Shown: positions 32,084-33,333 of the stretch, one piece after another
Numbering within the stretch: the stretch's first letter is position 1
How the letters are laid out: every line of letters begins with the position of its first letter
Assembly (NCBI GenBank): GCA_036169595.1
Contig: CM069768.1
Span: 3,962,001-4,026,000, forward strand
Reading direction: 5' to 3'
DNA length: 64,000 nt
Source: Dictyostelium firmibasis
Lineage: Eukaryota > Evosea > Eumycetozoa > Dictyosteliales > Dictyosteliaceae
Program-made: the position numbers and the translations under genes
The notes under the pieces: generated by a model
What the model saw: only the letters and a program-made list of their open reading frames with translations
Told to the model about the DNA's origin: nothing
Databases searched by the model: none

Positions 32084-32168
32084 TATTTTTTTTTTAATAA
32101 CCTCATCCAATTGGATGTGTTCGAATCTAGTTTTTATTTATCAATTATTTTAATTTTAAAATTTTTTT

Positions 32169-32260
32169 CTGTGACCACGTTAATTCGTGGTATGACCAAG
32201 ACTTGAACTAAGGCCATGGAGGCTGTGTTATTCTGTGTGAAACCACTATGCTAAGCCCCC
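32169..32260 (-). repeat. tRNA-like/SINE-like repeat, copy A
   Basis: Read on the minus strand it starts GGGGGCTTAGCATAGTGG, with an A-box-like TTAGCATAGTGG at 32254..32243. A B-box-like AGTTCAAGTCT lies at 32209..32199, then the hairpin ACCACG-AATTAA-CGTGGT near its end. Box spacing (about 45 nt edge to edge) is in the normal range for RNA polymerase III internal promoters. It does not fold into a complete tRNA that I can see. Confidence 0.6.
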
Positions 32261-32306
32261 ACATTATTTATGTATATTTTTTTTTTTTAATAACCTCATC
32301 CAATTG

Positions 32307-32346
<40 letters not shown>

Positions 32347-32412
32347 ATCCAATTGGATGTGTTCGAATCTAGTTTTTATTTATTAATTATTTTAATTTTA
32401 ATTTTTTTTTTT

Positions 32413-32503
32413 CTGTGACCACGTTAATTCGTGGTATGACCAAGACTTGAACCAAGGCCATGGAGGCTGTGTTTTTCTGTGTGAAACCACTATGCTAAGC
32501 CCC
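32413..32503 (-). repeat. tRNA-like/SINE-like repeat, copy B
   Basis: Nearly identical to copy A; the B-box here is GGTTCAAGTCT (32453..32443), one base closer to the consensus GGTTCGANTCC. It has the same A-box and the same ACCACG/CGTGGT hairpin. It is part of the second direct-repeat unit. Confidence 0.6.
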
Positions 32504-32551
32504 ACGATTTTTATGTATATTTTATGTTAATTAAAATTGAAAAAATATATA

Positions 32552-32625
32552 GGGACTATAGTTTAGTTGGATATAACGACCGGCTACGAACCGGTAGGTC
32601 TCAGGTTCGACCCCTGATGGTCTCG
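32552..32625 (+). tRNA. tRNA-Arg (anticodon ACG)
   Basis: A complete 74-nt cloverleaf without intron. The acceptor stem GGGACTA pairs with TGGTCTC (two G-U pairs), with discriminator G. The D stem is GTT/AAC, the anticodon stem ACCGG/CCGGT with loop CTACGAA, giving anticodon ACG at 32586-32588 after the conserved U33. The variable loop is AGGTC, and the T stem TCAGG/CCTGA has loop TTCGACC. It decodes CGU (and CGC/CGA after A34-to-inosine editing), the favoured Arg box besides AGA in this genome. A and B boxes are internal; a TTTT at about 32634 can serve as terminator. It is the only intact RNA gene I found in the window. Confidence 0.95.
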
Positions 32626-32636
32626 TAAAAAATTTT

Positions 32637-32690
32637 GGCAACCTAACCGACTAAGGTCGCTGGTTCGATTCCCGAGAGTGAAAATATAGT
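32637..32690 (+). pseudogene. tRNA-like 3' fragment with orphan B-box
   Basis: Directly after the tRNA-Arg terminator, GGTTCGATTCC at 32662..32672 is an exact B-box consensus. It is set in CTAACCGACTAAGGTCGC and CCGAGAGTG. The T-stem pairing around it is imperfect and no acceptor stem or anticodon arm can be built, so this is a relic of another tRNA or tRNA-like unit rather than a gene. Confidence 0.45.
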
Positions 32691-32702
32691 ATAACCTTTT
32701 CT

Positions 32703-32790
32703 GGGGGCTTAGCGTAGTGGTTCCACGCTGAATCACAAGCCTCCGTCGTGGTATAACCAAGACCTTTGGGATCGAAGTAACGTGGTCATA
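32703..32790 (+). repeat. tRNA-like/SINE-like repeat, copy C (internally rearranged)
   Basis: Starts GGGGGCTTAGCGTAGTGG (A-box 32709..32720) on the plus strand, opposite in orientation to copies A and B. After CCTCCGT the sequence switches to CGTGGTATAACCAAGACC, which matches the same unit read in the other direction, then ends TAACGTGGTCATAA. So part of the unit is inverted inside the copy and the B-box is lost. Confidence 0.55.
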
Positions 32791-32808
32791 ATTAAACACT
32801 CATTATTA

Positions 32809-32900
32809 GAGGCTATACGTAGTGGTTCTGCGCTGAATCACACAGTCTCCGTGGCCTTGGTTCGAGCCTTAAGTTCATACCACGAAGTAAAGTGGTCATA
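32809..32900 (+). repeat. tRNA-like/SINE-like repeat, copy D
   Basis: Same orientation as copy C: GAGGCTATACGTAGTGGTTC (A-box-like 32814..32825), GCTGAATCACACAGTCTCC, and a good B-box GGTTCGAGCCT at 32859..32869. ATACCACGAAGTAAAGTGGTCATAA follows, with the hairpin arm weakened. It is more diverged from A and B than they are from each other. Confidence 0.55.
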
Positions 32901-33004
32901 AATAACACCCCTCATCATATAATGAACATTAATTAAATTAACTATTAAAAAAAATAATAAACTTTATTATTGTTAAAGACTAAGGTCAAACAATAATCAT
33001 TAAT

Positions 33005-33049
<45 letters not shown>

Positions 33050-33333
33050 CATAATCAAGCGGAAAAAAGTTCGACTTCCAAAAAAACAACAACAAAAAAA
33101 CATAGTGATTAGAAATTCTAATCCCAATAATATTAAAAAAAAAAAAAATATCCTTTATAACCACAACCAAACATTTATTATATTTTTGTTTTTTTAAATA
33201 AACTTAATAAAAGAAGTTGAAACCAATACCTATTTTTAATTAATCTAATTATTAATTTTTATTTATTTATTTGTTTATTTTATATTTATTTGTAAAAATT
33301 TAAATTTATTTTAAAAACAATTTTTTTTTCTTC
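32901..33333. other. 3' flank between tRNA-like cluster and ankyrin gene
   Basis: About 430 bp with a poly(A) run of about 40 at 33007-33046 and otherwise A+T-rich filler. A short block at about 33047-33125 (CATAATCAAGCGGAAAAAAG) has mixed composition, but I see nothing definite. Confidence 0.5.

Follow-up and report, generated by a model that had tools for sequence, protein, structure and literature searches.

The tRNA-Arg gene in the window (the whole stretch of 64,000 nucleotides of Dictyostelium firmibasis DNA analysed here, positions 3,962,001–4,026,000 of contig 4) is flanked by two kinds of short element, S1 and S2, which very probably represent two SINE families that occupy opposite sides of tRNA genes, are likely transcribed by RNA polymerase III (Pol III) and probably owe both their copying and their choice of site to TRE-type LINEs that target tRNA genes. 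Judged from anatomy and target-site duplications (TSDs), and for S1 also from a tail of LINE type, both are SINEs. Since they are too short (∼180 and ∼350 bp) to hold the ORF1 and the ORF2 with APE-RT-ZF of TRE5/TRE3, S1 and S2 are not TREs; their insertion behaviour is TRE-like. The original prediction had left a choice between a tRNA-derived short element and relics of a rearranged tRNA array. A dispersed retroposon family was indeed found, with many copies, poly(A) ends and TSDs, although no named tRNA ancestor could be given, and the array found no support. The link to TREs that it had suggested was right in kind but too weak, as TRE-like LINEs likely spread S1 and S2 and are not mere visitors.

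Four separate tRNA-like units of ∼90 bp, A to D, had been predicted around the tRNA gene, and all four were recovered at the positions and in the orientations claimed. Units A and B are parts of longer elements, with poly(A) ends reaching 32086 and 32277, and correspond to S1 monomers of ∼180–230 bp. The outer one, copy A (32086–32266, minus strand), has its 5′ end at the high coordinate with the head G at 32259, its tail CCTCATCCAATTGGATG at 32101–32117 and its poly(A) at the low end, where it reads as a T-run on the plus strand (32086–32095). The tRNA-proximal one, copy B (32277–32509, minus strand), carries a long run at 32312–32343 within its tail; its head G lies 48 bp from the 5′ end of the tRNA-Arg gene. 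In two comparisons, copies A and B were 94% identical over 107 nt and 98% identical over 91 nt. The sequence TTTATGTATA occurs between the two copies (32267–32276) and again on the tRNA side of copy B (32510–32519), and was scored as the TSD of copy C4:3994503 (10 nt). Long T-run expansions (in element sense) together with a duplicated tail palindrome were seen in some S1 tails, among them that of copy B and the one at C4:2493400 (L007).

The anchor of both families at this locus is the tRNA-Arg(ACG) gene itself (32552–32625, plus strand; called by ARAGORN, and by Rfam as RF00005 with 57.9 bits). Downstream of it lies an external B-box-like sequence, GGTTCGATTCC (32662–32672, plus strand), and ∼32 bp further on begins the head of an S2 element. 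Units C and D, taken before for independent and older copies of the A/B unit, proved to be the left and right monomers of this one dimer of a second family, which ends at 33148. Its 5′ part (32700–32915, plus strand) contains the left monomer from 32704 and the right monomer from 32809, the latter with its B box at 32859–32869. The element is then split at 32915/32916 by a 131-bp, 5′-truncated 3′ end of a TRE3-like LINE of the L1229 family (32916–33046, plus strand; poly(A) at 33009–33046), which has CCTCAT on both sides and by eye is near-identical to the 3′ UTR of the LINE at L053. S2 resumes at 33047 with CCTCATAATC and ends at 33148 with a tail hairpin (33107–33134) followed by poly(A). 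A clear TSD was looked for around this S2 and not found. As had been predicted, no complete cloverleaf other than that of tRNA-Arg was detected: tRNA-Arg was the only match to Rfam in the whole window at the gathering cut-off and the only ARAGORN call at the locus, and at E≤5 Rfam added near the locus a B-box-sized tmRNA fragment at 32662–32672.

The shared A-box motif of the units, GGGGCTTAGC(A/G)TAGTGG, occurs in the genome well beyond chance (123 + 149 matches at ≤2 mismatches, against none for the reversed pattern). In the 31,455,843 bases (12 contigs) searched, the A-box string GGGGCTTAGCATAGTGG gave 272 matches at ≤2 mismatches, 84 of them exact, a figure that comprises S1 and S2 heads together, the S2 heads being one base different. 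The S1 tail matched at 235 places (≤2 mismatches, some LINE ends included), the S2 head at 98 and the S2 tail at 120 (both ≤1 mismatch), and each reversed control gave none. Dispersed copies, 3′ tails and TSDs of the kind the original prediction had proposed to search for are thus present in both families, and with hundreds of copies elsewhere the units are not one local decayed tRNA gene. From 5′ to 3′, S1 consists of a G-run, an A box, a B box, an ACCACG...CGTGGT hairpin, an A/T stretch, a 41-nt end that holds a CATCC...GGATG hairpin, and poly(A); in 74 of the 81 copies measured, the head and the end of the poly(A) were 164–190 nt apart. In S2, two S1-like monomers form a dimer of ∼350 bp, so that the two families have one type of head and different tails. 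Separately, an element noted at L018, L095 and L100 has a longer form, which ends in ATAGGT and poly(A), like the 3′ end of the LINE L1146 (ATCATAGGTAAAA).

Poly(A) 3′ ends and TSDs show that S1 and S2 moved by retroposition. With flank matches anchored at the poly(A) end, a TSD core of at least 8 nt was present in 34 of 52 un-nested S1 copies and in 22 of 27 S2 copies, compared with 2.2% and 1.0% of swapped flank pairs, respectively, a few of the counted matches being plain A- or T-runs (for example at L101); no core of 8 nt was found in the other 18 S1 and 5 S2 copies. The count excludes 39 of 91 S1 heads, of which 11 had no tail or flank that could be read and 28 were nested behind another A-tail, and 8 of 35 S2 heads whose tail could not be read. 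An initial version of this test was discarded because chance matches between A-runs raised its null to 56% at ≥8 nt.

The position of both families relative to tRNA genes was assessed with 48 tRNA genes called by ARAGORN in 76 merged stretches chosen around SINE copies; the loci cover 71 of the 84 exact S1 heads, and 20 S2 loci were picked by hand. For S1, 36 of 91 heads had a tRNA gene 40–60 bp away on their 5′ side in opposite orientation, and none showed any of the other three arrangements at this distance. Further heads were found at 220–260 bp (12) and 410–440 bp (8) from the tRNA gene, as would be predicted if S1 copies form stacks, which extend outwards from 40–60 bp upstream of tRNA genes. 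The nearest tRNA gene was on the 5′ side and in opposite orientation in 75 of the 81 copies with any tRNA in the stretch; the other 6 violate this rule, and in 10 of 91 copies ARAGORN found no tRNA in the stretch examined. S2 lies mostly 63–166 bp downstream of a tRNA gene in the same orientation. The tRNA gene was on the 5′ side and in the same orientation in 13 of 14 copies, one breaking the rule, and in 15 of 21 further loci (64–153 bp), the other 6 having no tRNA within a flank of ∼230 bp.

A sample chosen independently of the SINEs was provided by 54 nuclear tRNA genes among 63 scored by Rfam. Within 200 bp of these, S2 was found downstream in the same orientation at 14 and exact-head S1 upstream in opposite orientation at 7, with no case of the other arrangements, while random placement would give at most 0.03. 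According to the available text of PMC5911963, TRE5 elements insert ∼44–54 bp upstream of tRNA genes in opposite orientation and TRE3 elements 40–150 bp downstream in the same orientation; S1 follows the first of these position rules and S2 the second.

S1 has an A box (TAGCATAGTGG) and a B box (GGTTCAAGTCT) that, as read from the sequence, stand at tRNA-like spacing, and the S2 monomers have boxes of the same type, which suggests that both families are likely transcribed by Pol III. TTTT, a possible Pol III terminator, is present in 26 of 80 S1 copies (47% in shuffles), which counts against this reading and makes its avoidance a weak sign in S1; avoidance was clearer in S2 (present in 2 of 27 copies, compared with 51% in shuffles). 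The 91-nt S1 head folds somewhat better than shuffled sequences (z = −2.1). Neither Rfam nor ARAGORN called a tRNA in S1 heads. No tRNA ancestor could be named for the head: the best match among 34 distinct tRNA sequences, 16 nt of tRNA-Trp, equalled the maximum of 200 shuffles.

A candidate for the machinery that moves S1 is L1159, a LINE named here after its open frame of 1,159 residues. After its coding part L1159 ends in AAACAAGATTCGAACACATCCAATTGGATGAGGTTATTAAAA and poly(A), as does the AAG form of S1, and the last ∼40 bases of S1 are identical to the L1159 3′ end. Seventeen L1159-type ends were found genome-wide, two of them at 100%, and S1 tails are more than tenfold commoner. The shared tail was whole or decayed at 10 of 12 L1159-type ends examined (L068, L089, L122–L127, L129 and L130) and absent at the other two (L128 and C1:175231). 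This common tail holds GATTCGAACAC, which resembles a B box, so that a Pol III-like motif may be present at the 3′ end of the LINE itself. L1159 was also found where S1 is found. Of the two 5′ ends examined, the one on C5 is 46 bp upstream of a tRNA-Ile gene, with the LINE in opposite orientation and ATTATCTTTTAA as TSD at both ends; on C2, a copy whose first repeat is shortened lies 48 bp from a tRNA-Glu gene, with TATCTAAA on each side. The element starts with 182-bp tandem repeats (L091 and L090), which recall the A-modules of TRE5-A. Since S1 and L1159 have the same 3′ end, S1 is likely copied and aimed by the L1159 machinery.

In a protein search that scored, for each LINE, only the ∼8,000 candidates with the most words in common, the best match of L1159 was an unnamed Dictyostelium protein (62% identity), and L1229, a LINE of the other side, likewise matched unnamed Dictyostelium proteins best (59–61%). 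In the three frames searched, Pfam detected RVT_1 only. Since the search named neither LINE, the terms ‘TRE5-like’ and ‘TRE3-like’ are used here on the basis of position.

For S2 we infer a TRE3-like LINE as partner. In L1229 and L1244, both TRE3-like, the 3′ end is formed by a hairpin and CATTAATATT(T)AAAA, whereas in S2 it is formed by a different hairpin and CAATAATATTAAAA; S2 and L1229 have the hairpin design and TAATATTAAAA in common and nothing more, which is a resemblance and not identity. None of the LINE 3′ ends examined carried the whole S2 tail. At C1:767954, an S2 head gives way after ∼50 nt to the last part of an L1229 coding frame and its 3′ UTR, a junction that may reflect a template switch or an insertion. 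Two more LINE families, with frames of 1195 and 1163 residues (L063–L066, L097 and L098), appeared by eye to have a similar 3′ design of a small hairpin, a short A/T motif and poly(A).

S2 can itself serve as a landing site, since three long LINEs, each of a different family, were found within S2 copies and are flanked by duplications of 12–15 nt. Two of them are 32–62 bp past the B-box-like motif of S2 and the third is on the motif: an L1229 at C1:2,009,901 has the TSD GCTATACGTAGT starting 50 bp past the left B-like motif, an L1146 on C1 has AAACCCTCATTATTG starting 32 bp past it (the first As being common to the poly(A)), and an L1244 on C3 has ATCGAGTCTTGGT on the B-like motif itself. In the window, the right B box is followed after 46 bp by the truncated L1229 end. 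By comparison, in 20 of 35 loci the S2 head followed the nearest B-like motif at a distance of 15–58 bp and in 9 at 71–149 bp, while 6 had no B-like motif within 160 bp, so the spacing is similar in three of the four LINE cases. The S2 B boxes are thus likely, as far as the sequences indicate, to offer further landing sites, although the tRNA gene, or else the external B box next to it, may instead have aimed these insertions, above all that of L1244. As fewer than half of the listed L1229 and L1244 copies were read at both ends, the cases give no rate. The suggestion that the units might act as extra docking sites for TREs is in this way supported for S2, the third LINE perhaps having been aimed otherwise. 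Template jumping, considered as a source of LINE–poly(A)–S2 chains (L092–L094 and L096), was rejected for three of them, whose 5′ flanks show LINEs inserted into S2 with the TSDs GCTATACGTAGT, ATCGAGTCTTGGT and AAACCCTCATTATTG; no TSD was readable for the C6 LINE (L093/L131).

In the mechanism we propose, the A and B boxes would drive Pol III transcripts of S1 and S2. S1 RNA, recognized through its 3′ hairpin and poly(A), would be taken up by L1159 proteins; on encountering the Pol III complex at a tRNA gene, these would integrate S1 through target-primed reverse transcription. If this happened again and again at a single point, older copies would be displaced outwards and stacks would arise. 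S2 would use a TRE3-like LINE likewise, and then likely present its own B boxes as new landing sites. A bolder version, which we hold tentatively and to which we would give slightly less than even chances, is a self-feeding niche at tRNA genes: one SINE family would hold the upstream side and the other the downstream side, with each adapted to its own LINE lineage, and the B boxes of the SINEs, by recruiting the Pol III machinery, would become new targets for the LINEs to which the SINEs owe their spread. If so, the genome's safe haven for retrotransposons would grow with every SINE insertion.

Other explanations appear much less probable. S1 and S2 might simply prefer open chromatin at tRNA genes, where several dictyostelid retroelement families crowd in the account available from PMC5911963, and be moved passively by an unrelated LINE, the shared tail having been captured later. 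This is the strongest of the alternatives and still improbable: the distance and orientation of S1 match those of the LINE that shares its tail, and S1 and S2 occupy different sides, each as a class of its own. Slightly less credible is that internal deletion of LINEs gave rise to S1 and S2, which would then not be SINEs with a Pol III promoter of their own. The S1 3′ end is that of L1159, and such elements exist for R2/R1 in the accessible part of PMC3414825; however, the S1 head is unlike the two L1159 5′ ends at L090/L091 (compared by eye, with L1159 ends alone), it carries A- and B-box-like motifs, and S1 and S2 have heads of one type with different tails.

There is also a small chance that the elements are domesticated small RNA genes or boundary elements retained beside tRNA genes for host use. 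The heads are conserved (63 of 91 S1 heads within ∼2% of the reference) and, as noted above, fold better than shuffles; nevertheless, recent spread fits the low divergence too, the poly(A) ends and TSDs are those of retroposons, and some copies are nested in other elements. Finally, tRNA-like boxes, clustering at a real tRNA gene and opposed orientations could be accounted for by duplication and rearrangement of a single tRNA gene around tRNA-Arg, but the hundreds of copies found across the genome, with their poly(A) ends and TSDs, already refute a local decayed array, to which we assign almost no weight.

The reading of S1 and S2 as LINE-aimed SINEs places them between several known systems. 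SINEs normally scatter, and dictyostelids are a model for tRNA-gene targeting. Like tRNA-derived SINEs in general, S1 and S2 are short and non-coding, with A and B boxes, poly(A) and TSDs, and S1 has the LINE-shared 3′ end; they differ in sitting at characteristic positions beside tRNA genes and in having a head that is box-like only, with no cloverleaf found. The SINEs of Entamoeba, also amoebozoan, have 3′ ends in common with LINEs and are, to our knowledge, neither tRNA-headed nor targeted to tRNA genes. Compared with TRE5-A and TRE3-A of D. discoideum, as far as these are described in the available text of PMC5911963 and PMC5633606, the insertion sides and orientation of S1 and S2 are equal and the distances similar, whereas TREs have ORFs and module UTRs in place of ∼180- and ∼350-bp bodies with tRNA-like heads. 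A non-autonomous element, TRE5-A.2, is mobilized in trans by a TRE, according to the portion of PMC5633606 at hand. The nearest parallel seen for inherited LINE targeting is provided by the R2 and R2/R1 SIDEs of Drosophila, which in the accessible part of PMC3414825 are non-autonomous passengers that inherit LINE site specificity through their 3′ end; they differ in being 28S cotranscripts, not Pol III transcripts, and in carrying a 5′-terminal R2 ribozyme, while the heads of S1 and S2 are of Pol III type.

Among the literature matches listed on SINEs of Dictyostelium or of dictyostelids in general and on SINEs with target specificity, there was no description of SINEs like S1 and S2, nor of LINE-inherited targeting for dictyostelid SINEs. 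The available text of PMC4683709 tabulates, without sequences, 88 RepeatMasker ‘SINEs’ in D. discoideum and 57 in D. purpureum, which could be related to S1 and S2. In the annotated D. firmibasis genome, transposons were searched for, according to the accessible text of PMC11193728, by translated sequence against D. discoideum elements, a procedure that would miss SINEs such as these; S1 and S2 may account for the crowded tRNA flanks in that annotation. Since S1 has only ∼40 bases in common with L1159 and yet lands at the L1159 position, the positions suggest that targeting can travel with the LINE protein and the 3′ tail alone. A passenger of 180 bp would then offer a minimal, testable substrate for what TRE5-like machinery reads.

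Within the S1 stacks, outer copies tend to be more diverged. Median divergence from the reference was 1.1, 2.8 and 5.5% at positions 1 to 3 (n = 36, 18 and 6), and in adjacent pairs the outer copy was the more diverged in 11 cases and the inner in 7, with 6 ties, so the relation between order and age is weak. In two cases (C4:3155058 and C1:7786048; L005 and L034), an S1 is inserted antisense in the CCAATTGG palindrome of another S1 tail, with the palindrome lying within the TSD.
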